From positions 62,001-126,000 of the forward strand of contig CALWDE010000003.1 of NCBI GenBank assembly GCA_944376605.1: 64,000 nucleotides of DNA. The letters run 5' to 3'. This document shows positions 1,775 to 56,214 of the stretch, piece by piece. The notes under the pieces were generated by a model. It saw only the letters and a list, made by a program, of their open reading frames with translations, was not told where the DNA came from and did not search any database. The translations under genes were made by a program, and so were the position numbers. Source of the stretch: an uncultured Bacilli bacterium. Lineage in GTDB: Bacteria; Bacillota_I; Bacilli_A; RFN20; CAG-826. The stretch's first letter is position 1; each line of letters starts with the position of its first letter.

Positions 1775-2053
1775 ATGCTCTCTAGTATTTTTCTTACTGG
1801 CCGCTTAGGCGATGCGCTCGATGAACGGATCCGTTATGTTGAGGTAGACCGTATTATTCCGGGTCCTACTGGTACTTTTGCGACTGACCGCTTTCCTTGT
1901 CGCGGACTTTATGGTCCAAATGGGCGTTTTATGACCGCGCCAAAAGGGTCCTCTATTGTCATCAAAGGAAGACTAGAAATGGACGAGAAATATGGTCTTA
2001 TCATTGTTGCAGAATTAGATGAAATGATGCGAAAAGTTTCCAGTAAGGTATAA
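1775..2053 (+). CDS. Small protein of 92 residues with SSB-like OB-fold character
   Basis: Not a family I can name with certainty. An N-terminal FLTGRLGD and the C-terminal run GSSIVIKGRLEMDEKYGL resemble the beta-strands of single-stranded-DNA-binding OB folds, where a GRL strand and a KGS-hVxVxGRL strand are typical. It is shorter than SSB (over 150 residues) and lacks the acidic C-terminal tip that recruits partners. A strong SD (AAAGGGGG) precedes the ATG by six bases. It sits between pulA and plsC, and its stop codon lies inside the putative -10 box of plsC. Function is unknown; a PriB-like or minimal SSB-like role is inference only. Confidence 0.6.
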   Translation: MLSSIFLTGRLGDALDERIRYVEVDRIIPGPTGTFATDRFPCRGLYGPNGRFMTAPKGSSIVIKGRLEMDEKYGLIIVAELDEMMRKVSSKV

Positions 2054-2054
2054 T
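2049..2054 (+). promoter_or_regulatory. -10 box for leaderless plsC (TATAAT-N7-ATG)
   Basis: TATAAT at 2049-2054 is followed by GCCGCCC and an ATG at 2062. Transcription normally starts about 7 bases after the -10 box, so the RNA would begin at or next to the start codon. No SD precedes it. The same geometry occurs at five other genes here. Confidence 0.5.
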
Positions 2055-2061
2055 GCCGCCC

Positions 2062-2865
2062 ATGTGGAAATATATTCGTGTTGTTTTTCTCCTCTTACCC
2101 CATATTCTCTGGAATTGGCCCTTCTTTCTTGCTTATAAACGCCACCCAGAAAAGTATCCTTATCAGGAACGTTATGCGCGTGTAAGAAGGCTGGTTTTAC
2201 GTTTAATTCGGGCTTTTCATGTTGATTTTCATATTGAAAATAAAGAACTTTTTCTTTCCATGCAAAAGGAAAAGAACTCGTATCTTCTTGTCTCAGACCA
2301 TATGTCTTTATTAGACCCGGTATTTTTCATTTATCTTTCCGAGCGACCTATTAGCTTTGTCGCTAAAAAAGAAGTGAAAAAGTATCCTCTTATTGGAACT
2401 ATTTTGCAGGCGATAGACGGCTTATATTTAGATAGGGAAGATTTAAGAGGCTCTGTCGCGGTGATTCGTTCTTTAGAGAACAATCTAAAAAAAGACCAAT
2501 GGGATTATGGTATTTTCCCAGAGGGAACAAGAAGAAAAGAACCTCTTACTCCTTCTGTCTCTTTTCATCCAGGTTCCTTTAAAGCTGCTCTTCTTGCCGA
2601 GCGTCCCGTTCTTATGGTTGCTATGTACGGCACTTTCCGCGTTTTAAAGAAAGAAAGTTGGAACCGCTACCCAGTAGAAATTCGTTTCATTGAAAGGATT
2701 TCTACGAAAAAAGAAGATTTAGGTGAGAAAGGCACAGTAGAGATTGCTGCTTATTCAGAAGCGAAAATTCAAGAAAATCTCATTCGTTTCCAAAAAATGG
2801 ATCAAGAGTACGAAGAAAAGAAACTATATCGTTTAAGCTGGAAAGGCGGAAGTAAAGTCCGTTAG
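2062..2865 (+). CDS. plsC: 1-acyl-sn-glycerol-3-phosphate acyltransferase
   Basis: Membrane-associated enzyme that adds the second acyl chain to lysophosphatidic acid, giving phosphatidic acid. The family motifs are clear: HMSLLD (block I, HX4D) about residue 78 and FPEGTR (block III) about residue 155. The hydrophobic N-terminus (VVFLLLPHILWNWPFF) is a likely membrane segment. An ATG at 2053 is also in frame and would add three residues (MPP); I prefer 2062 because it is exactly 7 nt behind a perfect TATAAT and neither ATG has an SD. It is followed by a terminator shared with the convergent rsmF gene. PlsX and PlsY are not in the window. Confidence 0.87.
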   Translation: MWKYIRVVFLLLPHILWNWPFFLAYKRHPEKYPYQERYARVRRLVLRLIRAFHVDFHIENKELFLSMQKEKNSYLLVSDHMSLLDPVFFIYLSERPISFVAKKEVKKYPLIGTILQAIDGLYLDREDLRGSVAVIRSLENNLKKDQWDYGIFPEGTRRKEPLTPSVSFHPGSFKAALLAERPVLMVAMYGTFRVLKKESWNRYPVEIRFIERISTKKEDLGEKGTVEIAAYSEAKIQENLIRFQKMDQEYEEKKLYRLSWKGGSKVR

Positions 2866-2881
2866 GATCAATTGGTATAAT

Positions 2882-2914
2882 AAAAAAGGCTAGATAATCT
2901 CTAGCTTTTTCTTT
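2882..2914 (+). terminator. Intrinsic terminator between convergent plsC and rsmF
   Basis: GCTAGA (2889-2894) pairs with TCTAGC (2900-2905) over a TAATC loop, flanked by an A-run and a T-run (with one bulged G). The A/T flanks let it work in both directions. Confidence 0.75.
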
Positions 2915-4254
2915 TATGAGCGGAAGCGGTAAGCGATATCGAGTTCAGGCTTCCAGTTTGGGCGGCGTAATCCTTTGGGATAATGATTTTTGGCAATTCC
3001 TTTTGCTACTTTCACAAAACCAAGATTTAACCCCATGTAAGAGATAATCATGAAGTTATCCATACGGTTCATAGGGAAGGTTAATCCTTGAATGTAGGCG
3101 GCTGCTTCCTCATCACTTACAGGAATAGAATATTCACTCCCTAAATAAGCGGCGAGATGATGATCTGGAATATAAATATTGCTGCTTCTCATTTCGAGAA
3201 GTTTGACGCCATAACGAAGGATATTCATATGGGAGACATCAAAGTTTCTCTCTAACGAATAAAATTTATCTCGGTGGAACTCATTGCTTCTTCCTTCTAG
3301 GCCATAGTCTGTTATGAATTGACGATATTTGGAATAGGGAGGAAGAGGAATGACTTTTCTTTCACTAGCAAGTAGTTCTCCAGGCTTATGAATGAGAGCC
3401 ACAAACTGTCCTTCACCAGGGAAGCGGTGTGGGAAAAGATATACAGCCTCTTTGACATCACTTGGATGATAGAACATGTCATTTTCTGGTAAGGGTACAA
3501 ATTCGGCATCGCGGTGAGTCCTTTTAAACTCCAATAAAGTTCCTTCATTTTCTTCGTAAGAAAAGGAACAAGTGCTATAAACAATAGTTCCACCTGGCTT
3601 AAGCATTTCATAAGCGTAATGAAGAAGTTGAACTTGTTTGGCGTGATTTGCTAAAACTTTTCTTTCTGTCCAATCATCTAAAACGGCAGGATTTTTACGG
3701 AACATGGCCGAGCCTGAGCAAGGAGCATCTACTAAAATCTTATCGAAAACATTGGGATAAGATTCATGCGTGAAGGAAACATCGTTACTTGTTACCACCA
3801 TATTTCCTCTGCCCATCCGTTCGACATTTTGTGATAAGTCGTGAGCGCGAGGGAAGGAGACGTCATTGGCAATTAAACTGCCCTCATCATTCATGAAAAT
3901 AGAGCAAGCAAGAGACTTTCCGCCAGGTGCAGCACACATATCGTAGATGGTTTCGCCTGCTTTTGGGTTTAAGAAATAAACAGGCATCATTGCTGCAGCA
4001 TCTTCAATGGAATAACAGCCACAATCATAAAGAATGCTTTTCCCAAAACCGTATTCTTCTTTTTTATAAGAATAAGCACCAGGAACAAAAGGATGGGGGG
4101 TTACATTTGGAAAATGAGATACAAATTCATTTTCACTTAATTTCTTAGGATTAAGAATTAAGCAATGAGTAACTTCACCCTCTTCTACTTCCTTTCGAAG
4201 AGCGCTCACCTCCGCTTCCGGGAGATGGTTTAGAAGTGATGTCCATAAATCCAT
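2914..4254 (-). CDS. rsmF: RsmF/NSUN-type rRNA (cytosine-C5) methyltransferase
   Basis: SAM-dependent RNA m5C methyltransferase, 446 residues. The Rossmann motif DMCAAPGGKS, the DAPCSG motif with the first catalytic Cys, and YSTCSF with the second are all present. A C-terminal region of about 150 residues follows the catalytic domain, as in RsmF/YebU with its PUA-like tail. The longer open frame reaches 4410, but the first 52 residues overlap the divergent deoA gene and look like non-coding translation. I set the start at 4254, where a TATAAT lies exactly 7 nt upstream and no SD exists. It runs opposite to its neighbours. The precise rRNA target cannot be read from sequence. Confidence 0.85.
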   Translation of the reverse strand: MDLWTSLLNHLPEAEVSALRKEVEEGEVTHCLILNPKKLSENEFVSHFPNVTPHPFVPGAYSYKKEEYGFGKSILYDCGCYSIEDAAAMMPVYFLNPKAGETIYDMCAAPGGKSLACSIFMNDEGSLIANDVSFPRAHDLSQNVERMGRGNMVVTSNDVSFTHESYPNVFDKILVDAPCSGSAMFRKNPAVLDDWTERKVLANHAKQVQLLHYAYEMLKPGGTIVYSTCSFSYEENEGTLLEFKRTHRDAEFVPLPENDMFYHPSDVKEAVYLFPHRFPGEGQFVALIHKPGELLASERKVIPLPPYSKYRQFITDYGLEGRSNEFHRDKFYSLERNFDVSHMNILRYGVKLLEMRSSNIYIPDHHLAAYLGSEYSIPVSDEEAAAYIQGLTFPMNRMDNFMIISYMGLNLGFVKVAKGIAKNHYPKGLRRPNWKPELDIAYRFRS

Positions 4255-4261
4255 ACTTTGA

Positions 4262-4267
4262 ATTATA
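4262..4267 (-). promoter_or_regulatory. -10 box for leaderless rsmF (TATAAT-N7-ATG)
   Basis: On the minus strand TATAAT is followed by TCAAAGT and the ATG at 4254. A weak -35 (TTACAC-like) lies about 19 bases upstream, inside the palindrome at 4285-4297. Confidence 0.5.
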
Positions 4268-4284
4268 CTTGAAATATTCTTAAA

Positions 4285-4297: not shown

Positions 4298-4312
4298 GAG
4301 GGGAGAAAACAT

Positions 4313-5614
4313 ATGAGAATGGTTGATCTAATTGAGAAAAAAAGAGATGGAGGCGTTTTAAGTGAAGAAGAAATCGCCTTTTTTGTGCAAGGCGTCACGG
4401 ATAATTCCATCCCTGATTATCAAATAAGTGCTTTCTTAATGGCGATTTTATTCCGCGGGATGAACACAGAAGAAACTGCGATTTTAACGGATAAAATGGA
4501 GCATAGTGGACAAACAATCGACCTTTCTTCTATTCATGGGGCAACCGTTGATAAACATTCTACAGGCGGAGTAGGAGATAAAACTTCTCTTGCGCTTGGT
4601 CCTCTTGTTGCTGCATGTGGGGCAAAACTAGCAAAAATGTCCGGGAAAGGACTTGGGCACACAGGAGGCACACTTGATAAATTAGAATCAATCCCCGGTT
4701 ATCAAATTCAAAGAAGCATTGAGCAGTTTATTCACCAAGTAAATGATATTGGTTTATCGATTATCGGACAGACGGCAGAAGTAGATCCTGCGGATAAGAA
4801 ACTTTATGCTTTGCGTGATGTGACTGGCACAGTGGAATCCATTCCTTTAATCGCCTCTTCTATTATGAGCAAAAAACTTGCCGCTGGTGCTCAGACCATT
4901 TTGCTTGATGTGAAATACGGGGCTGGCGCTTTTATGAAAGATCTTTCTTCCGCCCGTGAGCTTGCTAAAGTTATGGTTAATATTGGGAAACATCTCCATA
5001 AAGACACCAGAGCAATCTTAACAGGTATGGAGGAGCCTTTAGGCTTTGCTGTTGGGAACGCTTTAGAAGTAAAAGAAGCGATTGATGAATTAAAAGGGCA
5101 CGGGCCCAAAGACTTCCATGAATTAATCATTCGTGCAGGAGGTATTATGCTTTTACAGGCTAAGATTGTTTCTAGTGAAGAAGAGGGGGAAAGAAAGATT
5201 CAAGAAGCCATTGATAATGGAAGCGGATTAAGAAAGTTAATCGAGATGGTGGAAGCACAAGGAGGAGACGCTTCTTATATTGAAAATCCCTGCAAATTCC
5301 CTATATCGAAACGGATTATTGAGGTACACGCAGAGGAAAGCGGCTATGTGCATCATATTGATAGTTTAGCAATTGGCCTTACTGCTATGCGTCTTGGGGC
5401 AGGAAGAGCAACAATGAATGATGTCATTGATCACTCTGCAGGAATCCTTTTAGCAAAGAAGGTAGGAGACAAGGTAGAGAAAGGCGAACTTCTTTTCACA
5501 ATGTATACAAACAAAGACGAGATAGGCTCTGCGGTGGAAGATGCTTTAAAAGCCTATCAAATTCATGAGGAGAAGATAGTTGCTCCTTCTATTATTGCGG
5601 ATTATCTTTTCTAG
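4313..5614 (+). CDS. pdp: Pyrimidine-nucleoside phosphorylase
   Basis: Cleaves thymidine, deoxyuridine or uridine with phosphate, giving the free base and (deoxy)ribose-1-phosphate. The family signature SGKGLGHTGGTLDKLESI is present near residue 105, after the phosphate-binding KHSTGGVGDK near residue 82. Length (433) fits Bacillus-type Pdp rather than the slightly longer enterobacterial DeoA. AGGGGAG before the ATG is a good SD. Its product can be used by DeoC, encoded 36 kb away in this window. It is followed at once by dtd and mnmA, probably as one transcript. Confidence 0.93.
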   Translation: MRMVDLIEKKRDGGVLSEEEIAFFVQGVTDNSIPDYQISAFLMAILFRGMNTEETAILTDKMEHSGQTIDLSSIHGATVDKHSTGGVGDKTSLALGPLVAACGAKLAKMSGKGLGHTGGTLDKLESIPGYQIQRSIEQFIHQVNDIGLSIIGQTAEVDPADKKLYALRDVTGTVESIPLIASSIMSKKLAAGAQTILLDVKYGAGAFMKDLSSARELAKVMVNIGKHLHKDTRAILTGMEEPLGFAVGNALEVKEAIDELKGHGPKDFHELIIRAGGIMLLQAKIVSSEEEGERKIQEAIDNGSGLRKLIEMVEAQGGDASYIENPCKFPISKRIIEVHAEESGYVHHIDSLAIGLTAMRLGAGRATMNDVIDHSAGILLAKKVGDKVEKGELLFTMYTNKDEIGSAVEDALKAYQIHEEKIVAPSIIADYLF

Positions 5615-5615
5615 T

Positions 5616-7207: not shown

Positions 7208-7250
7208 TATCTCTACAAAAAGCCATTCTTTTTTGTGATATTCTATAGTT

Positions 7251-8558
7251 ATGAGTAAAAAGAAAAAATCGATAAGTAAGAAGGGGAAACGCCTTCTTAC
7301 CTCTATAATTGCCTTCTTAATTGTCGCTGTTTTGGTAATTGCTGCTTATGCAATATACACTTTTGCGATTGAGCCAATGCTTCAAAGAGGAACTTCCTCC
7401 TCTTCTACGAGCGGCTCTTCCAGCAGTTCAAGCAGTCTAAACTCTTCTACAAGTTCGAGTAGCAGTAGTTCATCTAGCAATTTACCTGATACTTCTTCCT
7501 CTTCTAGTTCTAGCAATATAGAAGAGACCTATTCGCCTATTTCATTTCATTTTCTTGATTTAAATATTCAGTACACAGGCGACTGTACTTATATCAAAGC
7601 AGGAGATAATGACATTTTAATTGATGCAGGGGCGCGAAAAGCATCTGGTGAAGTCATTTGTAATTACCTAGATCAATATGTGGAAGATGGCAAATTGGAA
7701 TATGTAATAGCCACACATGCCCATCAAGATCATATTGCTGGATTTGTTGGAAGTTCTGATTCTTCTAAACCAAAAGGAAGAACTGGTGTTTTCTATAATT
7801 ATGAAGTAGAAACGTTAATTGATTTTCCTTTAAGCGATGCGACAACAGCGATTTATAGTGATTATCTAGAGGCTGTGAGCATGCTTGTTGGGGAAGGCAC
7901 AACTCATTACACTGCTTTAGATTGCGTCAAAGAACAAAATGGTGCGCAGAGGATTTATTCCTTAGGAGAGGGAGTCAGCATGGAGGTTCTTTATAACTTC
8001 TTTTATGACCATACCCGTAATGATTTCCGCGCCGAATATCCTGGAGTGAGCGGCAGTTTTAGTGAAGAAAACGATTATTCTGTATCACTTCTTTTCCGCC
8101 AAGGCGAGAAAGCAATGCTTTTTACAGGAGATAGTGAAGCATGGAGTGAACATTCTCTTGTTACAGAAAATGATTTACCAGAAAACGTTGTTCTTTATAA
8201 GGGTGGTCATCATGGCTCCTATACCGCAACCGGGGAAGAACTTCTTGCAGCGACAAGCCCGGATGCTATTGTCTTTGAATGTACGGCTGGAAATAGTGAG
8301 TTTGCAAGTGATCCTAATCACAGTTTTCCTGCGCAAGAAACAATTGACCGAATTGCCCCTTATACTGACCGCGTTTATGTGACACAAGTCGGCTCTTGGG
8401 AAGATAGAACTTATCACGCACCACTTAATGGCACTGTCATTGCCTCTTATGATTCAATGGGAAATGAAAATTTTGCATTCTCGAATAGTTCTGAAAAACT
8501 GAAGGATACATCTTGGTTTCAAGAGAATCGTACCACCCCTGAGGCGTGGCTTAGTTAG
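7251..8558 (+). CDS. Membrane-anchored extracellular ComEC-type metallo-beta-lactamase-fold hydrolase
   Basis: A Lys-rich N-terminus, one membrane segment (about residues 16-40) and a Ser-rich linker (about 48-95) place the C-terminal domain outside the cell. That domain has the metallo-beta-lactamase metal motifs: THAHQDH (HxHxDH), LLFTGDSE with the bridging Asp, and GGHHGS followed by DPNHSFP. The last two are typical of the ComEC C-terminal domain, and the true ComEC encoded at 16846 carries matching blocks. Hydrolysis of nucleic acid is plausible because two secreted nucleases follow, but it is inferred from context. There is no SD; GATATT, with an upstream TG, lies 8 nt before the ATG. 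Confidence 0.8.
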   Translation: MSKKKKSISKKGKRLLTSIIAFLIVAVLVIAAYAIYTFAIEPMLQRGTSSSSTSGSSSSSSSLNSSTSSSSSSSSSNLPDTSSSSSSSNIEETYSPISFHFLDLNIQYTGDCTYIKAGDNDILIDAGARKASGEVICNYLDQYVEDGKLEYVIATHAHQDHIAGFVGSSDSSKPKGRTGVFYNYEVETLIDFPLSDATTAIYSDYLEAVSMLVGEGTTHYTALDCVKEQNGAQRIYSLGEGVSMEVLYNFFYDHTRNDFRAEYPGVSGSFSEENDYSVSLLFRQGEKAMLFTGDSEAWSEHSLVTENDLPENVVLYKGGHHGSYTATGEELLAATSPDAIVFECTAGNSEFASDPNHSFPAQETIDRIAPYTDRVYVTQVGSWEDRTYHAPLNGTVIASYDSMGNENFAFSNSSEKLKDTSWFQENRTTPEAWLS

Positions 8559-8600
8559 TTGGTAATTGTTGCACGCTACCACAAGTGCCATAATGGCTTT

Positions 8601-10025
8601 ATGCAAAAAGGAAAAAAGATAGCTTTTGTTACCGCTCTTGCGGTCAGCGCCCTTACTCTTGGCGTGGTAGGGTTAACATTTACTCTCGATTCTTTAAGAA
8701 GTACTTATTACGGACGCGCTGCTGAACCTGCAGTTTATTGTGCTGACTTAACTTTTGGCACAAAACAATATACTGGTAGTACTGCCCCTTCGCTTGATTC
8801 GGTGGATTCCACAAATCTCACGCTTACTTCTCTAGATGTCGATCACTGTTATCATGAAAGTGGCGGAAACGCTTTGCGTATTGGAAGTAGTGGCAATGGT
8901 GGTTCTATTACGTTCCGCTTTTCTGAACCTCTTATTGTTACAAAAATCAAAGTACTTGGTTATACCTATAACACAGAATCTTCTACGATTTCAGTAAGTA
9001 ATGGTGTGAGCTCTGGAACTTTTTCTGTCTCTAGCGCCACCATTCCTGATATCAGTGATTCTTCTACTGATTCCGGTTATGTTGTCGAAGATTTAGACGG
9101 AGGGAACTTGACTCCTTCTAATTATTTAACTTTGTCGAATAACGGATCAAAACACCGTTTTAATCTTTGCAAAATTGTCTTCACGATTGGAGGCTATACG
9201 GGCGGAGATACAAGTAGTTCTTCGAGTTCCTCCTCTTCTTCCTCTTCTTCCTCATCTCATACGGGTGGAGGAGATATCTCACTTCCTGACTGGGACAAAG
9301 AGGTAGAAATTTATTATGAAGATGTGGATTGGTCTTTAACAGGAGTTGCTTTGCAGCGTTCTTTAAGCGAAACCATTAAGCAGCATACGCGCCTTACCTA
9401 TTCCGAGCTTTGGAGTGCTTTCTGGGAAACTGATGTAAGAGATGATGGTACTTTATGGGACATGTATAGCAACGTTGAGTGGAGAAATTCTGGCGGGCAA
9501 TGTGGGAATTACAAAGCAGAAGGGGACTGTTATAACCGCGAGCATAGCGTTCCGAAAAGCTGGTTTAATGACGCTTATCCTATGTACACAGATCTTCACC
9601 ATTTAGTGCCTACTGATGGGTATGTAAATAATCGAAGAGGAAATTATCCTTTCGGTGAGGTTGGGTCTGCTACCTATACCTCTCAAAACGGCTCTAAATT
9701 AGGCTCTTCTATAACTCCGGGTTATAGTGGAACCGTATTTGAACCCATTGATGAATATAAGGGTGACTTTGCCCGAATCTACTTCTATTTTGTGACGTGT
9801 TATTCTTCCCATACAAGCTGGGCAAGCGGTTCTGCGCAAAACATTACTCCTAATGCTCAATTAGGCTTAAATGAGTGGAGCAGAGCAATGTTCCTCAGAT
9901 GGGCGGAAGATGATCCTATTTCGCAGAAAGAAATTGATCGAAACAACGCTGTTTATGAAATTCAAGGAAACCGCAATCCTTTTGTGGACAATCCTGCCGC
10001 AGCGGAGGCGGTATTTAACGCATAA
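8601..10025 (+). CDS. Secreted endonuclease I family (EndA/NucM-like) DNase
   Basis: The HNH-like endonuclease I motifs are clear in the last third: NREHSVPKSWF, then TDLHHLVPTDGYVNNRRGNY with the catalytic and metal-binding residues. A signal peptide or N-terminal anchor (about residues 7-27) comes first. A Cys-containing beta-rich domain of unknown role (about 40-200) and a poly-Ser linker (about 210-230) separate it from the nuclease. The enzyme would cut DNA non-specifically outside the cell. I start at 8601 (MQKGKKIAF) rather than the TTG at 8559: CATAAT lies 6 nt upstream and TTGTTG 17 bp before that, and no SD is present. Confidence 0.88.
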   Translation: MQKGKKIAFVTALAVSALTLGVVGLTFTLDSLRSTYYGRAAEPAVYCADLTFGTKQYTGSTAPSLDSVDSTNLTLTSLDVDHCYHESGGNALRIGSSGNGGSITFRFSEPLIVTKIKVLGYTYNTESSTISVSNGVSSGTFSVSSATIPDISDSSTDSGYVVEDLDGGNLTPSNYLTLSNNGSKHRFNLCKIVFTIGGYTGGDTSSSSSSSSSSSSSSSHTGGGDISLPDWDKEVEIYYEDVDWSLTGVALQRSLSETIKQHTRLTYSELWSAFWETDVRDDGTLWDMYSNVEWRNSGGQCGNYKAEGDCYNREHSVPKSWFNDAYPMYTDLHHLVPTDGYVNNRRGNYPFGEVGSATYTSQNGSKLGSSITPGYSGTVFEPIDEYKGDFARIYFYFVTCYSSHTSWASGSAQNITPNAQLGLNEWSRAMFLRWAEDDPISQKEIDRNNAVYEIQGNRNPFVDNPAAAEAVFNA

Positions 10026-16845: not shown

Positions 16846-18882
16846 ATGTCTTTTCTTCTCCAAGCCATTATCCCCTTCTTTCTCGCCTTCTTTTTTACTC
16901 TATTATCTGCTTCTTTATTTCCTTCATTCTCCTTTCTTTTCCCTTTGTTACTTCTGATAGGGGGTCTCTTTCTTTCTTGGAGAAAAGGAAAGAGAATCTT
17001 CCTCTATTTTCTTGCAGGAAGTCTATTAGGCATTATTCTCTTTCTTATTCCTCATCCTTCCTTATATGGAGAAAGGGAAGTAGTAGGTGTTGTTATTCGC
17101 GCGAAAGACAACTATTTTCTTCTCCAAAGCGGTTTATCTCGCATTTATGTATACGAAAAAGGTTCAACGCGAGAAGTTGGAGATATATTGTCCTTAAAGG
17201 GAACTTTTTCCTCTTTATCTTTTACGGAATATGAATCACGATTTTCTTTTCAAACTTATTTAGAAAATAAAAGAGTAGGAAGTGAATTTTCTGGAACGAT
17301 TTCCTCGATATTTTCTCTCCCATTTCGCTTTCGAGAGTGGGAAAAGATGGCACTAGATGGTGTCGGAGGAGATGCATCCTCTTTGCTTGATTCTTTGCTT
17401 TTTGATCGAAAAGATTACAAGGCAATTGGGATTATTACTTTTGAGGAAGCTGGGCTTTTATATTTACTAAGCGCATCTGGATTGCTCTACGGCACTTATT
17501 TAAAGTTTTTTGAGTGGTTACTTGGTCATTACTTATCCAAAAAAACTCTCATAATAACTCTTCTTATTCTTTCTTTTTTACCCCTTCCTCTTTTGCTTCA
17601 TAAAGTAGGGATTTGGCGGATTTTTCTTACTAGAGGCATACAGAGTATTCTCTTGCTTAAAGGAAAAGAAAAGATTTCTTCACTGCCTTTAACTTCCTTT
17701 CTTGGAACCATATTTCTTCTTTTTGATCACACCCTCGTTTTAGACCAAGGATTTTCATTAAGCTTCCTTCTTTCACTTTTTATGAGTCTATCTTCCTCTT
17801 TATTTTTACGTATTGCCCCCTTAAAAAGGAAAATAGCATCTTTCTGCCTCTTAATCTTTCTTGTATTTCCCACTTTTCCTCAAAATGGTAGCCTTTCTCT
17901 GCTTGCTCCTATTCGAACAACGCTATTTCTGCCTCTTATATTCCCATTTCTTATACTTGGAATAATAGGAATGTTTACGCCGCTATCCGGGATTTTGAAC
18001 TCTTATGCTTCTTTCTTAATGAATGCTGCAGCCTTTTGGAAGGAGATAGATGTTTCAATTCCGTTTATATATCCGGAAGAGGCGTTATTCGCTCATTTCT
18101 TTTTCTTAGCTATTTTGCTCCTGCTTCTTTCTATTGGATGGAAAGGTTGGAGCAAAGTGATATCCTGCTTCCTGATAACGCCTCTTCTTTTATTAAATCT
18201 TGTTCCTTCTTTTTCTTTCCTCACTGCCGAGGTTAGTTTTATTAATGTTGGCCAAGGGGATTCAATCTTGATTCGCGATGGAGAAATTTCCGTATTAATT
18301 GATACGGGTGGCGTTTCATCTTTTGACATTGCAGAAGAGTGTTTAATTCCGTTTTTTCAAAAAAGAGGGATTCATGACTTAGATTATGTTGTTATCACGC
18401 ACGGAGATAGTGATCATGATGGCGCTCTTCCTTCTCTTTATGATCATTTTGCTATAGGAAAAATACTTCGTGAGAAAGAGGATTTCCCTTTAAGTGTTGG
18501 TTCAATTCGCTTAGAAAATCTCAATACTTATTTATGGGAAGAGGAAAATGATAATTCTTTAGTCTTAAAATTAGATAATTTCCTTGGGAAAGATTTCCTT
18601 TTTATGGGCGATGCTACAACAAAAGTTGAAAGGAAATTACTTGATGAACAAGCAGATATAAGAAGAGATATTATAAAAGTTGGTCATCATGGGTCTCGTA
18701 CTTCTTCAAGTGATGAATTTCTCAAGGAAGTAGCGGCGGATACAGCAATCATTTCGTGCGGAAGAGGTAATGATTATGGTCATCCAGATGAAGAAGTGAT
18801 GGAACGTCTTAAAAATCTAGAGATAAATATTCGCCGGACTGATGACGAGGGGACAATCTCTTATTTCGGTTTTGCTTCGTAA
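16846..18882 (+). CDS. comEC: Competence DNA channel ComEC/Rec2
   Basis: Polytopic membrane protein thought to carry single-stranded DNA across the membrane. 678 residues: N-terminal membrane segments and an OB-like domain (REVGDILSLKGTFSS), the multi-TM competence domain in the middle, and a C-terminal metallo-beta-lactamase-like domain beginning FINVGQGDSILIRDG, with THGDSDHDG, LFMGDATTK and KVGHHGS. In the first metal motif the second His of HxHxDH is Asp (HGDSDH). The start at 16846 has an AAGGGGA SD; the frame's earlier start at 16801 lies inside comEA. Confidence 0.93.
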   Translation: MSFLLQAIIPFFLAFFFTLLSASLFPSFSFLFPLLLLIGGLFLSWRKGKRIFLYFLAGSLLGIILFLIPHPSLYGEREVVGVVIRAKDNYFLLQSGLSRIYVYEKGSTREVGDILSLKGTFSSLSFTEYESRFSFQTYLENKRVGSEFSGTISSIFSLPFRFREWEKMALDGVGGDASSLLDSLLFDRKDYKAIGIITFEEAGLLYLLSASGLLYGTYLKFFEWLLGHYLSKKTLIITLLILSFLPLPLLLHKVGIWRIFLTRGIQSILLLKGKEKISSLPLTSFLGTIFLLFDHTLVLDQGFSLSFLLSLFMSLSSSLFLRIAPLKRKIASFCLLIFLVFPTFPQNGSLSLLAPIRTTLFLPLIFPFLILGIIGMFTPLSGILNSYASFLMNAAAFWKEIDVSIPFIYPEEALFAHFFFLAILLLLLSIGWKGWSKVISCFLITPLLLLNLVPSFSFLTAEVSFINVGQGDSILIRDGEISVLIDTGGVSSFDIAEECLIPFFQKRGIHDLDYVVITHGDSDHDGALPSLYDHFAIGKILREKEDFPLSVGSIRLENLNTYLWEEENDNSLVLKLDNFLGKDFLFMGDATTKVERKLLDEQADIRRDIIKVGHHGSRTSSSDEFLKEVAADTAIISCGRGNDYGHPDEEVMERLKNLEINIRRTDDEGTISYFGFAS

Positions 18883-18888: not shown

Positions 18889-18894
18889 TATAAT
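18889..18894 (+). promoter_or_regulatory. -10 box for leaderless holA (TATAAT-N7-ATG)
   Basis: TATAAT, then AACGGAG, then ATG at 18902. The box lies just after the comEC stop. GGAG touches the ATG directly, too close for a normal SD. Confidence 0.5.
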
Positions 18895-18901: not shown

Positions 18902-19876
18902 ATGATAACAATTCTTTTTTCACCTCAATCTAAAATGGTAAAAAGCGCCCTATCTTCGCTTTTAAAGAAACTTCCGATTGAGAGGAATGCTTTTAATGAA
19001 GTGCACTTAGACATGGGCACAGAAACATTAATTAGTTTGGAATCGGAATGCTCTTACTTGCCTTTTGGAGAAGAAAGAAAAATCGTAGTCGCAGAGAATT
19101 TCCACTATTTATCAAGTGAAGAAAAAAGAAAAAAATATCTTAAAGGGGATGATGCTTCTCCTTTGCTAAACTATTTCAAACATCCAGATGAAGATATTGA
19201 ATTATATCTATTGGTATATTCTTCAAATTTGGATGAGAAATGTGATTTTTATCGAGCGTTAAAGGAAGGGAATGCCGTTTTTAAGAAAGTAAGTGAGTTT
19301 ACTGACCAAGAATGGGATGGGTATATGTTGCGATATTTTGAAAAAAGAGGAGTGCATATTACTCATGAGGCAAGAAGCGAATTGCTAAGACGAATTAAAG
19401 GGGACTATTCTTCCTTTTTAAACGAGGCGGCAAAGCTAATTCTCTATAGTGATGGGAATACCTTGCAAAAGGAGGATATTGAATTAATGGTAACTTCGCC
19501 ATTAGAAGATTCCTCTTTCGCTTTAACAGAGGCTCTATTTTCTGGAAAAATCGGAGAAAGTATCCAAATTTATCGCGACCTTCGCTTTCAAGGAAACGAG
19601 ACTATCGTACTAATTCATGCCCTCGCAACGCAGATGAGGGAACAATCTCTGGTAAATCACATTTATCAAAAAGGGATGAGTATTGATGATTGCGCGTCAA
19701 TTTTAAAAGTAAGTTATTGGCGGGCAAAAAGGCTGATGAATCGTGCAGAAAATTTGAATGAAGATCGTTTTGGAAAAGAAATTGTTCGCCTTTATGAATG
19801 TGAAAAGTCTATTATGACTGGCCTTCGAGATGCTGATAGCGCTTTTGAAACTTTCTTGTTGGGTTTTGCATGTTAA
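18902..19876 (+). CDS. holA: DNA polymerase III delta subunit
   Basis: Clamp-loader subunit that opens the beta sliding clamp. Sequence is divergent, as usual for HolA, but the layout fits: 324 residues, an AAA+-like N-terminal domain without a working Walker A, a helical domain with LLRRIKGDYSSFLNEAAKLILYS, and a C-terminal collar domain (ALATQMREQ ... RAENL). Position between comEC and rpsT is the Bacillus yqeN/holA position. Start 18902 is preferred over the in-frame 18842 inside comEC. Confidence 0.88.
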   Translation: MITILFSPQSKMVKSALSSLLKKLPIERNAFNEVHLDMGTETLISLESECSYLPFGEERKIVVAENFHYLSSEEKRKKYLKGDDASPLLNYFKHPDEDIELYLLVYSSNLDEKCDFYRALKEGNAVFKKVSEFTDQEWDGYMLRYFEKRGVHITHEARSELLRRIKGDYSSFLNEAAKLILYSDGNTLQKEDIELMVTSPLEDSSFALTEALFSGKIGESIQIYRDLRFQGNETIVLIHALATQMREQSLVNHIYQKGMSIDDCASILKVSYWRAKRLMNRAENLNEDRFGKEIVRLYECEKSIMTGLRDADSAFETFLLGFAC

Positions 19877-26100: not shown

Positions 26101-26106
26101 TATAAT
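26101..26106 (+). promoter_or_regulatory. -10 box for leaderless lepA (TATAAT-N7-ATG)
   Basis: TATAAT, then CCGCGCG, then ATG at 26114. The 7-nt spacer has no SD-like purine run at all, which makes this one of the cleanest cases. Confidence 0.55.
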
Positions 26107-26113: not shown

Positions 26114-27928
26114 ATGGCTTTTGATAGAAAACACATACGTAACTTCTCGGTTATTGCTCATATTGATCACGGAAAGAGCACATTATGCGACCGAATCTTA
26201 GAAAAAACCGGCGCTGTCGATAAAAGACAACTTCGAGCGCAAATGCTTGATGAAATGGATTTAGAAAGAGAAAGAGGCATTACCATTAAACTCAATGCTG
26301 TCTCTGTATCTTATAAAAATCACGACGGCGAAGAGTTTTTAATTAATTTGATTGATACCCCAGGGCACGTCGACTTCTCTTATGAGGTATCTCGCTCTTT
26401 AGCAGCTTGCGAAGGCGCGCTTCTTGTTGTGGATGCTACTCAGGGAGTAGAAGCACAAACTTTAGCAAATGTTTATTTAGCGATTGATAACGACTTAATG
26501 GTCATTCCTGTGATTAACAAAATTGACTTACCATCCGCTGATATTAATCGTGCTAAAAAAGAAATAGTGGAGCGGATTGGTTTAACAGTAGAAGATTGTT
26601 GCTTAGTTTCTGCTAAAACTGGCCAAGGAATCGAGGAAATGTTAGAAAAAGCAGTAGAATTAATTCCTCCTCCTGAAGGTAATCCAGAAGCTCCACTACA
26701 AGCGCTCATTTTTGATAGTCATTATGATTCTTATCGCGGGGTAGTAGTTTTAATTCGCGTAAAAAACGGGCGCGTTCGTATCGGCGATGAAATCTATTTG
26801 ATGGCAGCAGGAAAAAAGTATGTGGTGAATGAATTAGGAATTCGCACACCGAAAGAAATTCCTACTGAGTCTTTAGAAGCCGGAGAAGTTGGCTATTTAG
26901 CTGCGACCATTAAAGATATAAAGGATGTTACTCCTGGGGATACCATTACTTTAGCTAGTCATCCCGCATCAACGCCTTTACCAGGATATCGAAAGATTAA
27001 TCCGATGGTCTATTGCGGCTTATATCCAGTAGATTCTAGAAAATATCCTGATCTAAAAGATGCTTTAGAAAAACTTTCTTTAAATGATTCTTCTCTTCTT
27101 TTTGAACCAGAGAGTTCTGAGGCTCTAGGGTTTGGATTCCGAGCAGGATTTTTAGGGCTTTTGCACATGGATGTTGTGCAAGAACGCCTTGAGAGAGAAT
27201 ACGGGCTCGACTTAATTTTAACTGCTCCAAGTGTTCGTTATCAGTGTGATTTAACAGATGGCACCACAGTATATTTTGATAATCCTTGTGCTATGCCAGC
27301 TTCAACAAAAGTAAAGCGGGTATTAGAACCTTACGTGAAGGCTTCAATTATGACGCCTGGAGAATATGTCGGCGCTGTTATGGAACTTTGTCAAAATAGA
27401 CGAGGAATTTATCAAGATTTAATCTACTTTGACGATACAAGGCAGGTAGTTAAATATCTATTGCCTTTAAGTGAGATTATCTATAACTTTTTCGATCGTC
27501 TAAAATCATTAAGCAAAGGATACGCTTCTTTAGATTATGAGGTGGATGGTTACCGTGAGAGTGATTTGGTAAAAATGGATATTTTGCTTAATGGCAAGCC
27601 TATCGATGCATTAAGTTCTATCGTCTATCGACCAGATGCCTTTTATAAAGGAAATTTAATTGTCCGAAAGCTAAAAGATATCATCCCGCGTCAACTTTTC
27701 GAAGTTCCCGTTCAAGCCGCTATTGGTGGAAAGGTGATTGCTCGAGCAGATATTAAAAGTGTTCGTAAAGATGTTTTAGCCAAGTGCTATGGAGGAGATA
27801 TCTCTCGTAAAAAGAAACTTCTTGAAAAACAAAAAGAAGGAAAGAAGCGAATGAAAGAAATTGGTTCTGTTGAGGTTCCACAAGAGGCATTTATGGCCGT
27901 TTTGTCTCTCGAAGATGGCCAAGAATGA
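26114..27928 (+). CDS. lepA: Elongation factor 4 (LepA)
   Basis: Translational GTPase affecting ribosome translocation and 30S biogenesis. G1 [10 protein letters not shown]2 RGITIK, G3 DTPGHVDF and G4 NKIDLP are all present, followed by EF-G-like domains and the LepA-specific C-terminus; 604 residues is standard. The stop is TGA. Transcript appears to start at the ATG. Confidence 0.97.
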
Positions 27929-28804: not shown

Positions 28805-28911
28805 TTATGAAAAAAGAAGATAACGCCGAATTTTCCCCATCTGCAGGGGACTTTTTAAAATTTTTAAAAAATAATTTAGTAGATTTTTAGTGCTTTTTTA
28901 TCGCTTATTCA

Positions 28912-28917
28912 TATAAT
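28912..28917 (+). promoter_or_regulatory. -10 box for leaderless pseudo-Fic gene (TATAAT-N7-ATG)
   Basis: TATAAT, then GAAAAGT, then ATG at 28925. An in-frame ATG at 28916 overlaps the box itself and would lie upstream of the predicted transcript start. Confidence 0.55.
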
Positions 28918-28924: not shown

Positions 28925-30427
28925 ATGGAAAAGCATGAAGCAATTGTATATCGAGTAACCGATGATACTTATTTAACAGAAACGCTTTTTAATCGCGAAT
29001 ATCGGATGCTTGGTTCTGCTGCTATTTGGCAAAGCGTTCTTTCTTATCGAAAAGAATATCAAGTTGCTTTTAAGCCTTTGCAAACCCTAAATAAATTTGA
29101 TTTTTTCTACACAGGAACGGACGCAATATTAAAAAAGATTAATATATTTGAAAATTTTTTACGTCACTATATCGAATGCTTTGATTACCAAGGCGGGAAG
29201 AAATTAGAAAAAGTGATTCATGCTGGTTTGTTACCATGTTTAGCAGGCATTAATGAACTAGAAAGCTGTGAAATGAGTACACTTACCTTGAAGGCAGTGC
29301 TCAATCATACTTATCGCAATAATGAAACATTTCATGAGCCAGTTCTTCACTATCATTCTTTCTTATTAGAGCAGTATCATCGCGATGATTCTTCTTTACC
29401 AAACGATGATTTTCTTGGTGAAGCATTGAGTGCTTTAGAAGGAACGGAAGAGTTAACCTCTTTTTACCGCTTAAAAGACTTTAGTCCAAATTTGTCTAAA
29501 GTGTGGAAAGTACAGACAAATCCTGATTATGCCTATTGTCCATATGAACGGATTGAAAGTTCTGTTAATTCCTTGTGGGATGCATTAACAACAAACCTAA
29601 ACATCCCAATTACAATCCGTACTCTTGCTACTCTCTTCTATTTGGACTGGATTCAACCATTTGATGAATATAACTCTTCTATTGCTGTTCTTGCTGCAAA
29701 AAGAGTATTAGCAGGGGAACTTGGGCCTGGTGCATATCTCATACCATTAGAAGCTTTCCTTGTAGAACTTCATAAGCCAGAATTTGACTTCCTTTTAAAA
29801 GAGGTTCGCCGCTCAGGGGATTTGACTTATCTTCTTGATGCTTTTATGGTCAAGATGCGTTCTTGCTTTGCTGATTTTGAAAATATCGAGAAAACCATTG
29901 AAAAAGAAATCAGAGAAGACGAACGTGCTGAACTTTATCACCAAGATGAGGTTAAAGTTGAGGATGAACCTGTTGAAGAGATATCCGAAGAAATTCCTGA
30001 AGTTCAGGAGGAAGTATCTCTTTCGGAAAAAAGCGAGGTAGAAGAAGCTCCTACTATTTCCGTTAAAGTTGAGGCGAAGAAAGAACCTTCTAAAACAACC
30101 ATTTTGTCTTCTCCTCAGCTAGCACAAGAAAATGAAAATTCTGTCTTATCTTCTTTTGCTCCCTCAAAAATGAGCGAAAAGGAGGCAAAAGAATACGCGC
30201 AGTATTTGTTAGAAACTGATCCAAATTTATCGCGTAAGCAGGCGAATTTCTTAGCAACGCATCTTATACCGGGCCGTTTCTATACGATTCAGCAATTTAA
30301 ACGTTTTGCACGCTGCTCGTATGAGACAGCGAGGACGTCCATGGATAAATTAGCGGCATCTGGTTACTATACAAAAAGCCAAATTAAAAATAAATTTATC
30401 TATACCCCTGTGGTGAAAGGAAAGTAA
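28925..30427 (+). CDS. Fic-like protein with degenerate active site and C-terminal winged-helix
   Basis: 500 residues. The region LATLFYLDWIQPFDEYNSSIAVLAAKRVL (split here: LATLFYLDW, then IQPFDEYNSS about 243-252) has the layout of a Fic core, but the HPFxDGNGR loop reads QPFDEYNSS: the catalytic His is Gln and the terminal Gly and Arg are both Ser, so AMP transfer is not expected. A Glu/Val/Pro-rich linker (about 325-400) follows. The C-terminal 70 residues (FYTIQQFKRFARCSYETART, MDKLAASGYY) look like a winged helix-turn-helix. The protein may be a DNA-binding regulator built from a Fic scaffold. Start at 28925 follows from the -10 spacing. Confidence 0.65.
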   Translation: MEKHEAIVYRVTDDTYLTETLFNREYRMLGSAAIWQSVLSYRKEYQVAFKPLQTLNKFDFFYTGTDAILKKINIFENFLRHYIECFDYQGGKKLEKVIHAGLLPCLAGINELESCEMSTLTLKAVLNHTYRNNETFHEPVLHYHSFLLEQYHRDDSSLPNDDFLGEALSALEGTEELTSFYRLKDFSPNLSKVWKVQTNPDYAYCPYERIESSVNSLWDALTTNLNIPITIRTLATLFYLDWIQPFDEYNSSIAVLAAKRVLAGELGPGAYLIPLEAFLVELHKPEFDFLLKEVRRSGDLTYLLDAFMVKMRSCFADFENIEKTIEKEIREDERAELYHQDEVKVEDEPVEEISEEIPEVQEEVSLSEKSEVEEAPTISVKVEAKKEPSKTTILSSPQLAQENENSVLSSFAPSKMSEKEAKEYAQYLLETDPNLSRKQANFLATHLIPGRFYTIQQFKRFARCSYETARTSMDKLAASGYYTKSQIKNKFIYTPVVKGK

Positions 30428-42564: not shown

Positions 42565-43521
42565 TTATTTTTCTATTTCTCGCCATTTTTTCTCGATTAG
42601 AAGTAGTTCTTTATTTTGCGTCCCTAAAAGAGGCTTTTTTTGAAAAAGCAGATGGATAAGCGGCTTTAAGGAAGCAAAATATTCCTTACTTCCTCCTAGT
42701 TTTTTATCTCGCTTTTTATCATATAAAAGAGAAAGAATGATTCTATTTTTATGAGCAAAGAAACTCTTTAAGGGAATAACTGCTCCTTCTTTTTCAAAAG
42801 TAAGACGCACAGCAAGAAGGGCAAGAATGTGACGATAAGTTCTTTTTTGAAAATGAGAAGACTCCGTTAAAGATCCTTTCCTTAAGCGATATAAGACAAG
42901 CGGATTTTTAATGGTAACAAGTTTATCTATCTTTAAAAAAGAGGAAGCAATGACGGGGATATCTTCGAAACAGTCATTAATATCGTCAAAAACATAGCGG
43001 TTTTGCAGGAATAAATCTTTTTTCATAAGCTTACCCCACATAAAGGAACGAAGAGAAATGTCCGCAAAAAGGGCATTAAAAATTTGCTTTTGGGAGGTAT
43101 AGGTAGCATTTTTACCAAAGAGATAAGGTTTTTTCTTTCCTTCTATATAGCGCGCATAGGAACAGGAGACTACAGAAGAGTTTTCTGCGATTAGAGTTTG
43201 CATGAGCACTTCTAAAGCATTTTCTTCTAAAGCGTCATCTCCATCTAAAAAGAGAACATAATCGCCCTTGGCAAAAGGTAATAAGGCTTCTCTTCCTTTT
43301 GCTAAAGAAGTTCTTTCTAAGGCGTAATGCGCTTCTAGAGAGGGGTATTTTTCTTTTACTTTCTCCACTACCGTTTTGGTTTCGTCGAGCGAGGCAGATA
43401 CATGACAAAGCACTTCAAAAGAGAAAGTTGTTTTTTGTTTTAAAGCGCTCAGTAAACACTCCTCAATATCTTCTTGATTGTTGTAAGTGACAACCAAAAT
43501 GCTAATTAAGGGTCGAGACAT
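42565..43521 (-). CDS. GT2-family glycosyltransferase
   Basis: GT-A fold inverting glycosyltransferase, 318 residues. N-terminal ISILVVTYNNQEDIEECLLS and the metal-binding LFLDGDDALEENALE (DxD-type) near residue 94 are clear. The second half is charged (several Lys-rich helices) without membrane segments. Likely acts on a cell-surface polysaccharide or teichoic-acid-like chain; target unknown. Convergent with the GT4 gene, four bases between stops, no terminator visible. No SD; TAAAAT lies 6 nt before the ATG, so this too may be leaderless. Confidence 0.85.
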   Translation of the reverse strand: MSRPLISILVVTYNNQEDIEECLLSALKQKTTFSFEVLCHVSASLDETKTVVEKVKEKYPSLEAHYALERTSLAKGREALLPFAKGDYVLFLDGDDALEENALEVLMQTLIAENSSVVSCSYARYIEGKKKPYLFGKNATYTSQKQIFNALFADISLRSFMWGKLMKKDLFLQNRYVFDDINDCFEDIPVIASSFLKIDKLVTIKNPLVLYRLRKGSLTESSHFQKRTYRHILALLAVRLTFEKEGAVIPLKSFFAHKNRIILSLLYDKKRDKKLGGSKEYFASLKPLIHLLFQKKPLLGTQNKELLLIEKKWREIEK

Positions 43522-43639
43522 ATCTAAATTTTAAAAGAATTGAGAATTTTTTTCTAGTTCACCCTATTCCTATAAGGAATAAAAATTCATAGCACTCAAA
43601 GTTAAAAACAACTAACTAAATTTTTACCGATTTACTTGG

Positions 43640-51356: not shown

Positions 51357-51377
51357 TATACAAGAAAGGAATATGCC

Positions 51378-52691: not shown

Positions 52692-52693
52692 AT

Positions 52694-54148: not shown

Positions 54149-54164
54149 GAGGCGTTCCTCCTTT
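54147..54164 (+). terminator. First hairpin after xylB
   Basis: AGGAGG and CCTCCT pair around CGTT, overlapping the xylB stop; only three T residues follow. Weak alone; the stronger terminator comes next. Confidence 0.5.
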
Positions 54165-54169
54165 CCGGG

Positions 54170-54204
54170 AGCCGGGCTGCTACCTCTCAGCTCGGCTTTT
54201 TCTT
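54170..54204 (+). terminator. Main intrinsic terminator of the xylose operon
   Basis: AGCCG-G-GCTG pairs with CAGC-T-CGGCT (a G-U in the middle) around CTACCTCT, followed by a long T-rich tail. Confidence 0.92.
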
Positions 54205-54280
54205 TTTCTAAAGATTTTATCTTCCTTTTCTTTTCTCTTGCGCGTATATTAACAAGGCTTGCAGGAAGGAGGTGAACCTC

Positions 54281-54457
54281 ATGGCGATTAAAGTGGTCAT
54301 CCGTCAGGATGAAGGTGTAGAAGAAGGCATTCGTCGTTTCAAAAGAGCGGTGAATAAGTCTGGCGTCGTAATGGAAATGAGAAAGCGTGAGTTTTATCTC
54401 AAAACTGCCTTACGTCGTAAACAAAAGAGCGAAATGGCTCGTCGTAAAAAGTGGTAA
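54281..54457 (+). CDS. rpsU: 30S ribosomal protein S21
   Basis: 58-residue basic ribosomal protein. Starts MAIKVVIRQDEGVEEGIRRF and ends in a Lys/Arg-rich tail, all typical. The perfect SD AAGGAGGTGA precedes the ATG by five bases; an in-frame GTG at 54272 lies inside it and is rejected. TATATT at 54245-54250 is the likely -10. Separate transcript with its own terminator. Confidence 0.96.
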   Translation: MAIKVVIRQDEGVEEGIRRFKRAVNKSGVVMEMRKREFYLKTALRRKQKSEMARRKKW

Positions 54458-54477
54458 TTTACCTTTTCTTACAAAAT

Positions 54478-54502
54478 AGCGCTGAACTTCAGCGCTTTTT
54501 TC
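54478..54502 (+). terminator. Intrinsic terminator after rpsU
   Basis: AGCGCTGA and TCAGCGCT form an 8-bp stem with an ACT loop, followed by six T residues. Confidence 0.93.
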
Positions 54503-54545
54503 ATATCTAAAGGGCCATAAAGAAAAGAAATCACTATATCTAGGT

Positions 54546-55730
54546 ATGGATAGTGAAATTTATCAAGCAAAGAATGATACTTGTGGTTACAGTGCATTAA
54601 GAACTTTCTTAATAGAGTTAACGCATCAAAAAGGGTGGCGTTATTTACCTCGTCTTCATGATGGGGCAATGGATTTAAGAGAGCTTTCAACTTTAGCAAG
54701 TGATGCTGGCGTTACTTTAGCGTGGAAAAGAGCAAACTACGCAAATGCCATTTATGAGGCGAAACGTTTCCCCATCTTATTACTATTAAATGAAGGGAAG
54801 CAGGGACATTTAGTTACCTTATTAAAAAAGAAAAAGAATATGTTTCTTATTGCGGATCCTAAAAACGGAAAAGAGTGGATTTCCGGCGCATTACTGCAGG
54901 AAAAATGGACTTTAATATTTGGAGAAGGAAAGATAGAAAAGAAAGAAACTCCGCCTAAGAAGAAGCGGCTTATTGACCCATTTGCTTTGCCGCTTCTACT
55001 AGCCTTTTTGTTTTTAGAGCTGGTGTTTTTCTTTCTTGGAATCTCTTTTTTACAAGAAGATCCAAGATTGTTATATGCGATTATCTTTCTCACACTTGGT
55101 GTTATCTTTTTTGCAGTGAGAGAAGGTAGTTCTTTTTACTTTATGCACCAATTTGAAGAGAAACATTTATCGCTTATTGCAAAAGGAAGCAAGGCAGATG
55201 ATTACCTTCTCTTTCAAAAGGCAAAAAGTACCTTTCTATTTTCTCCATCTTCTGCGTTTGCTTCTTTGCTTATTGCCCTCACTTTATATGTCTATCTTGC
55301 TTTATGGGGAGTTGGTTATGCTTTAGCGGGTGCCTTGCTCATTCTTCTTGAAGTACTTTATTGCCCTTTATTTGCTACTTTAAAAAAGGAAGAAAGGCGT
55401 TTAGAGAGGAGAGAAGCCCTTCTTTTATCACGTCCTTTTGAGAGAAAATTCGCGAGAAAAATTGGAAGAGAAGGGGAAAAACTTGCTTTAAAGATGCGCG
55501 TTGTGGATTTAATTACTTATCTGCCTTTGTTTTTACTTTCTTTCTTAGCGTTATACCAAAGTGAAACATCTTCTTTTTATGCTTATATTACTGCCTTTTT
55601 AGCCTTATTCCTTTTTGAAAAAAGTTTGCGTCCTGCTTTGCACTATCCTTTAGGTAAAAAAGAAAGGCGGAAAATAGAGGACGCTTTCTTTGAACGCTTT
55701 CTCTCGCTATCTGAGCCAAACCAAGTGTAA
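54546..55730 (+). CDS. C39-type peptidase fused to a six-TM domain, no ATPase
   Basis: 394 residues. The first 130 form a C39 Cys peptidase domain: catalytic Cys13 in NDTCGYSA, His88 in KQGHLV and Asp104 in IADPKNG. The H-D spacing of 16 equals that in bacteriocin-exporter peptidases. After a Lys-rich linker come about six membrane helices (within about 143-380) in the pairing expected for an ABC exporter transmembrane domain. The nucleotide-binding domain is absent and none is encoded next to it. It could cleave and release leader peptides without ATP-driven export, or pair with a distant ATPase. There is no SD; a poor -10 (TATATC) is nearby. Confidence 0.77.
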   Translation: MDSEIYQAKNDTCGYSALRTFLIELTHQKGWRYLPRLHDGAMDLRELSTLASDAGVTLAWKRANYANAIYEAKRFPILLLLNEGKQGHLVTLLKKKKNMFLIADPKNGKEWISGALLQEKWTLIFGEGKIEKKETPPKKKRLIDPFALPLLLAFLFLELVFFFLGISFLQEDPRLLYAIIFLTLGVIFFAVREGSSFYFMHQFEEKHLSLIAKGSKADDYLLFQKAKSTFLFSPSSAFASLLIALTLYVYLALWGVGYALAGALLILLEVLYCPLFATLKKEERRLERREALLLSRPFERKFARKIGREGEKLALKMRVVDLITYLPLFLLSFLALYQSETSSFYAYITAFLALFLFEKSLRPALHYPLGKKERRKIEDAFFERFLSLSEPNQV

Positions 55731-55733
55731 AAT
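55728..55733 (+). promoter_or_regulatory. -10 box for leaderless ybeY (TAAAAT-N7-ATG)
   Basis: TAAAAT, preceded by TG, then ATGGTTG, then ATG at 55741. It overlaps the stop codon of the C39 gene. No SD. Confidence 0.45.
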
Positions 55734-55740
55734 ATGGTTG

Positions 55741-56214
55741 ATGGAAATTGATTTTTCTTCGTATATTGATACGAAATATGATGCTTTAGAGGCTCGCTAT
55801 AAAAAAATTGCAGAAGAAGCTTTTTCAAGGCTCTCTGTACCGGATGATTACGAAGTTGACGTTACTCTTGTAGATGAGAAGACCATTCAAGAAATGAATC
55901 GTAATTATCGGGGAGTTGACCGCGTTACTGACGTGATTTCTTTTGCTTATAATGAAGGAGAAGACCCTGTATCTGCCTTTTATGCGCCTGGGATGACCCG
56001 AATATTGGGAGAAATTTATATTTGTGTTCCTCGCGCAATTAGCCAGGCAGAAGAAATTGGAAATAGTCTAGGAAGAGAGCTTTGCTTCCTTTTTACGCAC
56101 GGGTTATTACATCTGCTTGGTTATGATCATATGAATGAAGAAGAGGCTAAAGTGATGTTTTCTTTGCAAGAAGAAATCTTAAATGTACTAGGAGGGGACT
56201 ATGGAACCTATTGA
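55741..56214 (+). CDS. ybeY: Endoribonuclease YbeY (rRNA maturation)
   Basis: Zinc metalloprotein needed for 16S rRNA 3' end maturation and ribosome quality control. The signature THGLLHLLGYDHM with three His ligands is near residue 120, after VTDVISFAYNE. 157 residues. Start 55741 (MEIDFSSYID) is preferred over the frame's earlier start inside the C39 gene because of the -10 spacing. phoH and dgkA, which usually flank it, are missing. It overlaps cdd by 14 bases. Confidence 0.94.
   Translation: MEIDFSSYIDTKYDALEARYKKIAEEAFSRLSVPDDYEVDVTLVDEKTIQEMNRNYRGVDRVTDVISFAYNEGEDPVSAFYAPGMTRILGEIYICVPRAISQAEEIGNSLGRELCFLFTHGLLHLLGYDHMNEEEAKVMFSLQEEILNVLGGDYGTY

Follow-up and report, generated by a model that had tools for sequence, protein, structure and literature searches.

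Leaderless genes are known in streptococci, Mycoplasma, Actinobacteria and Deinococcus. The present analysis concerns a 64,000-nucleotide stretch of DNA from an uncultured Bacilli bacterium (C3:62001-126000 of its genome; hereafter the window), in which a TATAAT-like -10 box stands close before the ATG of several genes whose mRNAs would probably be leaderless. In streptococci, 8.6-9% of mRNAs are leaderless as mapped by differential RNA sequencing (dRNA-seq), and 81% of the S. pyogenes leaderless set is also leaderless in S. agalactiae (PMC6431027). The streptococci concerned (S. pyogenes, S. agalactiae and S. pneumoniae) resemble the present case in being Bacilli that also use Shine-Dalgarno (SD) sequences, but their share was mapped and counted per mRNA, whereas ours is counted per gene (~8%), predicted from sequence, and belongs to another lineage (PMC6431027).

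A related signal was described by Zheng et al. in 2011 as TA-led genes; 56 of 209 Firmicutes genomes have them, with a mean share of 4.2% of genes (2.4-16.6), chiefly in Lactobacillales and Mycoplasma (PMC3160421). There, as here, a -10-like signal lies ~12 bp before the start codon, and the share of genes in our case is ~8% (PMC3160421). In Mycoplasma gallisepticum, TATAAT promoters are separated from the mapped transcription start site (TSS) by 6 (rarely 5 or 7) nt; nine transcripts appear leaderless there and the 5' untranslated regions have a mode near 15 nt, as compared with 28 candidate genes, all of them predicted only, in the sampled third of the present genome (PMC4245973). GeneMarkS-2 (Lomsadze et al. 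2018) predicts leaderless initiation mixed with SD initiation for 21.6% of bacterial species; this mixed class serves start-codon placement, and the clade named for it is Actinobacteria (PMC9581028). That ribosomes can recognise a 5'-terminal AUG directly is likewise known from other bacteria (PMC6431027, PMC10783764). The arrangement itself is thus already known in other bacteria, and what is new is another lineage, so that the novelty is modest; no report on leaderless genes in the lineage at hand came up in searches of open-access papers.

The first-pass annotation of the window had listed six genes with TATAAT or TAAAAT, 7 nt and then ATG, and all six sites were recovered letter by letter, with TATAAT at plsC, rsmF, holA, lepA and an open reading frame (ORF) starting at 28925, and TAAAAT at ybeY. 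The sites and genes are as follows.

2049..2054, + strand: -10 box TATAAT, 7 nt before the plsC ATG at 2062; shares bases with the stop codon of the preceding ORF, which ends at 2053
2062..2865, + strand: plsC-like acyltransferase gene (PF01553), predicted leaderless; a gene caller blind to upstream signals picks the same start
4262..4267, - strand: -10 box TATAAT, 7 nt before the rsmF ATG at 4254
2914..4254, - strand: rsmF (16S rRNA methyltransferase; PF01189, PF13636), predicted leaderless
18889..18894, + strand: -10 box TATAAT, 7 nt before the holA ATG at 18902
18902..19876, + strand: holA (DNA polymerase III delta; PF06144/PF21694), predicted leaderless
26101..26106, + strand: -10 box TATAAT, 7 nt before the lepA ATG at 26114
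26114..27928, + strand: lepA (LepA domains), predicted leaderless in this species
28912..28917, + strand: -10 box TATAAT, 7 nt before ORF 28925
28925..30427, + strand: 500-aa ORF without a family match (formerly 'pseudo-Fic'), predicted leaderless
55728..55733, + strand: -10 box TAAAAT with TG directly 5', 7 nt before the ybeY ATG at 55741; shares bases with the stop codon of the preceding gene, which ends at 55730
55741..56214, + strand: ybeY (PF02130), predicted leaderless

The names plsC, rsmF, holA, lepA and ybeY agree with Pfam; 'pseudo-Fic' finds no such backing, as ORF 28925 has no match in Pfam or NCBIfam, and its only two hits in the PDB (E 0.18 and 0.21) are not convincing. It is also correct that these starts differ from longest-ORF calls, which would begin plsC at 2053, rsmF at 4410, holA at 18842, ORF 28925 at 28916 and ybeY at 55690; only the lepA start agrees. 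The upstream-blind caller picked 18935 for holA, and the orthologs favour 18902. As for the statement that the six genes have no SD, plsC and lepA do carry AAGG-type tetramers, but these lie 5' of the -10 box and hence outside the predicted mRNA.

To see the arrangement beyond the window, we have called genes in the window plus 18 readable stretches, 418 kb in all, of which 354 kb lie outside the window, from a genome that totals 1,183,876 bases over 15 contigs, with 96.6% completeness; one further stretch (C12:40001-60000) reads N throughout and was left out. Starts were placed from coding potential and start-codon type with upstream signals ignored. Of 340 genes called, 11 were dropped because they lacked a closed stop upstream or had less than 80 nt of sequence before them, and 94 of the remaining 329 are SD-less, meaning without an SD core of 4 nt, 88 of them with ATG starts. 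A box is TATAAT with at most one mismatch unless an exact match is stated. Among the 88 SD-less ATG genes, 28 have a box at 6-8 nt (29 hits: 15, 10 and 4 at the three spacings, against a background of 0.68 per position), and outside the window alone the figure is 23 of 72. The excess of ~26-27 genes corresponds to ~8% of the 329, or about one gene in twelve. The SD genes of the same genome show no peak there (10 hits among 219, where 8 are expected). When no motif is assumed, the commonest hexamers 6-8 nt before the SD-less genes are again TATAAT (10) and TAAAAT (7), which further upstream occur only 4 and 3 times in 4928 places. The spacing of exactly 7 nt put forward at first is too strict, since the range is 6-8 with a mode of 6; it was rejected as a rule because the 29 SD-less genes of the sample fall 16, 10 and 3 at 6, 7 and 8 nt.

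Counts made without gene calling, over 25 genomes of the genus (this one included) and 16 from other families of the order, tell where the signal lies. TATAAT-N7-ATG occurs 24 times in this genome and its reversed pattern 6 times, the other 18 spacings average 6.8, and the 24 at spacing 7 give a Poisson p of ~2e-7, or 6e-5 without the window; spacing 6 has 20 and spacing 10 has 7. Summed over spacings 0-18, the pattern and its reverse are nearly equal (146 and 145), so that the signal is a concentration at 6-7 nt and not a surplus of TATAAT near ATG. A genome-wide concentration near 7 nt, whose absence had been named beforehand as a result that would overturn the claim, is therefore present. 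Over the 25 genus genomes the totals at spacings 6, 7 and 10 are 458, 384 and 194, and genome by genome 24 of the 25 have more matches at spacing 7 than at 10 (a few by a narrow margin) and 23 have more at spacing 6 than at 10. The other families show no such enrichment (798, 1129 and 1147); they are more A+T-rich (29% GC in the sample), which raises the background. By gene calls, 19 of 67 SD-less ATG genes of other genus species have a box at 6-8 nt (background 0.76), alongside a second, smaller peak at 14 nt (6 hits), as compared with 3 of 79 in five control groups of other Firmicutes taken together, to which 36 of the 75 loci L006-L080 had been assigned. In loci L001-L005 the 20 SD-less ATG genes gave 6 hits; these loci were kept out of the independent counts, because L001 and L104, and likewise L002 and L116, are apparently the same contigs. 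In other families of the order, 8 of 42 SD-less ATG genes have a box (9 hits, background 0.82 per position), as do 4 of 9 rsmF and 1 of 3 holA orthologs, a hint that leaderless genes may not be confined to the genus.

Gene by gene, the arrangement is often retained. Ortholog rows were excluded if the match began after residue 40, covered less than 40% or had no start codon, leaving, of the 20 genus lepA stretches, 15 for holA, 15 for ORF 28925 and all 20 for lepA, and further 18 of 20 genus loci for rsmF and 22 of 22 for ybeY. The holA box is found in all 15 orthologs, exact in 14, at 32-61% protein identity. For rsmF (54-79% identity), 17 of the 18 orthologs have an exact TATAAT 5-9 nt upstream of the start and the remaining one has it at 10 nt, and ORF 28925, whose orthologs in the lepA stretches are 30-47% identical, has a box 5-9 nt upstream in 13 of 15. 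Among the 22 ybeY orthologs, 21 carry TANNNT 6-9 nt upstream of the start, often after TGTG, and only 5 are within one mismatch of TATAAT. All 10 orthologs of greA (15714) and all 11 of a comEA-like gene (16286), two other genes of the window, have an SD, and none has a box. To judge from these upstream sequences, holA, rsmF and ORF 28925 are leaderless-type across the species of the genus, and lepA less so.

The position of the genes and their start codons are also informative. An opposite-strand upstream neighbour is present for 16 of 28 leaderless-type genes as compared with 40 of 232 SD genes (Fisher p ~1e-5), and leaderless-type genes make up 19 of the 126 probable unit-start genes (opposite-strand neighbour or a gap >100 nt). 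Among 27 TTG genes of this and the other genus species none has a box at 6-8 nt, whereas 74 of the 546 genes that start with ATG or GTG do (p = 0.04), a difference to be expected of RNAs that begin with a purine. The 16S rRNA ends 3' in GGATCACCTCCTTTCT, with the anti-SD intact, and an SD core of at least 5 is found at 50% of ATG starts versus 11% of internal ATGs; the proposal that SD and SD-less modes are mixed in this genome is thus borne out. A search for full-length S1 (TIGR00717) gave two matches, both below the cut-off, and carries little weight, as 12 of 14 control genomes are likewise below it.

From the box and its spacing, the fact that several genes conserve it, the unit-start position, the lack of a peak before SD genes and the intact anti-SD, we consider it quite likely, at a probability of about 0.87, that -10 promoters 6-8 nt before the AUG give rise to leaderless mRNAs in this genome beside its SD genes. 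Sigma-70-type promoters would place their -10 box 6-8 nt 5' of the start codon, and RNA polymerase would start at the A of the AUG, or within one or two nt of it; given the 6 (rarely 5 or 7) nt spacer of Mycoplasma gallisepticum, boxes at that distance put the TSS on or next to this A. Ribosomes with initiator tRNA would then read the leaderless mRNA by recognising its 5'-terminal AUG directly, with most other genes of the same cell using ordinary SD initiation. Both the transcription start at the AUG and translation from it are inferred. The leaderless interpretation first proposed for the six genes gains from the enrichment genome- and genus-wide, from its retention in several genes and from its concentration behind opposite-strand neighbours.

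Several observations weigh against this reading. In the 354 kb outside the window, exact TATAAT stands 7 nt before any ATG 5 times versus 3.5 (p = 0.27), which would suit the view that these are chance TATAATs of a genome rich in A+T, selected by eye. Any-ATG profiles were dropped as the main test, because codon phase and internal ATGs blur them, and chance, which we regard as hardly credible, was rejected on the whole-genome count (24 versus 6.8) and on the boxes kept by orthologs in many species. TATAAT is moreover below the expectation from composition, with 148 occurrences on both strands of the 354 kb as compared with ~607 predicted, which also speaks against chance; this scarcity is consistent with selection against stray promoters. 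A TTGACA-like -35 sequence sought 5' of the box gave no peak in the set of this genome (n = 29) and no more than a weak surplus, at spacers 15 and 17 (4 and 3 of 23), in other genus species; a TG one base 5' of the box is present in 8 of 29 cases here and in only 1 of 23 in the genus, and a box was found at 1 of 12 TTG genes in other families. The lack of SD is by itself weak evidence, since the cut-off of 4 is lax, being reached by 46% of internal ATGs, and it is also reached by 3 of 15 holA, 8 of 18 rsmF, 14 of 22 ybeY and 7 of 15 ORF 28925 orthologs. Although 29 of the 39 genes with a box in this genome have no SD core of 4, other all-A/T hexamers at the same place go with SD lack in a similar way (28 of 38 with the box versus 10 of 15, p = 0.74; in the genus 19 of 30 versus 2 of 7, p = 0.20). 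SD lack is thus not specific to the box, because the box occupies the SD position and the association is partly mechanical. Together with the A/T-rich upstream regions of SD-less genes, this is what one would expect if an A/T-rich hexamer acted as a translation signal in the mRNA, comparable with the A-rich or Kozak-like leaders of Bacteroidota, and not as a promoter. That explanation appears very unlikely, as it is the -10 hexamer proper that recurs at a narrow spacing, and not A-richness in general, and as the hexamer prefers the starts of transcription units.

A less remote, although still improbable, alternative is that the promoters are real and the mRNAs either carry short SD-less leaders, with the TSS off by several nt, or are made mainly from operon promoters further upstream. 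The 20 other genus lepA orthologs lend it some weight: in 13 of them an exact TATAAT stands 13-16 nt upstream of the ATG, and 11 of these are labelled SD-less. Just 6 of the 20 have a box at 5-9 nt, which counts against the leaderless reading. Read-through is possible for plsC, lepA, holA and ybeY, which lie close behind co-directional genes. However, leaderless-type genes as a set are over-represented after genes of the opposite strand, a position in which read-through is improbable; the overall SD-less peak is at 6-8 nt, with the peak at 14 nt in other genus species being the smaller one, and holA and rsmF keep box and ATG together.

Returning to the leaderless reading, lepA deserves a closer look. 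A TATAAT at 13-16 nt predicts a leader of ~6-9 nt for those orthologs. Of the remaining genus labels, L104 is SD and L115 'other'; in other families the box at 5-9 nt is absent from all 15 lepA genes, 14 of which are labelled SD-led and one (L129) 'other'. The 13 orthologs with TATAAT at 13-16 nt come from L103-L114 and L120, and many of them have ATT or TTT immediately 5' of the ATG. In the LepA tree, from which L120 was left out as too short, the leaderless rows form two well-supported clades (this genome with G011 and G018; G019 with G002 and G012) plus the single genome G004, and the initiation label needs three changes, two of them forced by well-supported branches. The LepA of this genome has its nearest named relatives at 70-78% identity, all of them in metagenome-assembled genomes labelled Erysipelotrichaceae, Bacilli, Firmicutes or simply bacterium. 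Tentatively, leaderless initiation in the genus may be a conserved trait of particular genes, with lepA possibly a switch caught in stages (SD-led, short leader, leaderless), apparently made by small shifts of one TATAAT relative to the ATG.

If so, lepA would be a natural series for a change of initiation mode and a tractable case of such switching, and the conserved leaderless set could respond jointly to the state of the ribosome or of IF2/IF3. More generally, the data would add one more lineage, probably of Bacilli to judge by its LepA relatives, with a sizeable predicted leaderless gene set, in which some leaderless-type genes keep the arrangement across species. Start codons in this genome call for a leaderless-aware gene finder, as five of the six named genes are over-extended by longest-ORF calls.

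Three near variants named alongside the six sites were also correct in hexamer and spacing.

8589..8594, + strand: -10-like CATAAT, 6 nt before the ATG at 8601 of the endonuclease I gene (Endonuclease_1)
43528..43533, - strand: -10-like TAAAAT, 6 nt before the ATG at 43521 of the GT2 gene
7237..7242, + strand: -10-like GATATT (weak), 8 nt before the ATG at 7251 of the MBL-fold gene

A separate element near ORF 28925 is a 16-bp non-palindromic motif, TTAGTAGTTTTTTAGT, a copy of which with one change precedes this ORF.

28876-28891 and 59678-59693, + strand: the two copies in the window
C3:90876, 121678, 136440, 145467, 203024, 209314 and 211112: the seven copies in this genome

Six of the seven copies have at most one mismatch and one has two; the latter is weak, since the reversed-motif control gives 4 in this genome at two mismatches and 0 at one. 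All seven lie within 120 kb of C3, a clustering of ~1e-5 by simulation, in a region where GC skew and gene strand switch as at a replication terminus, which it probably is. At one mismatch or fewer, the motif occurs in 22 of 25 genus genomes with one to six copies each, 52 in total versus 4 for the reversed control. It is a candidate terminus-domain site or operator. All 31 copies listed for this and other genomes fall between called genes, and 12 of 15 genus orthologs of ORF 28925 are preceded by the motif with at most one change.

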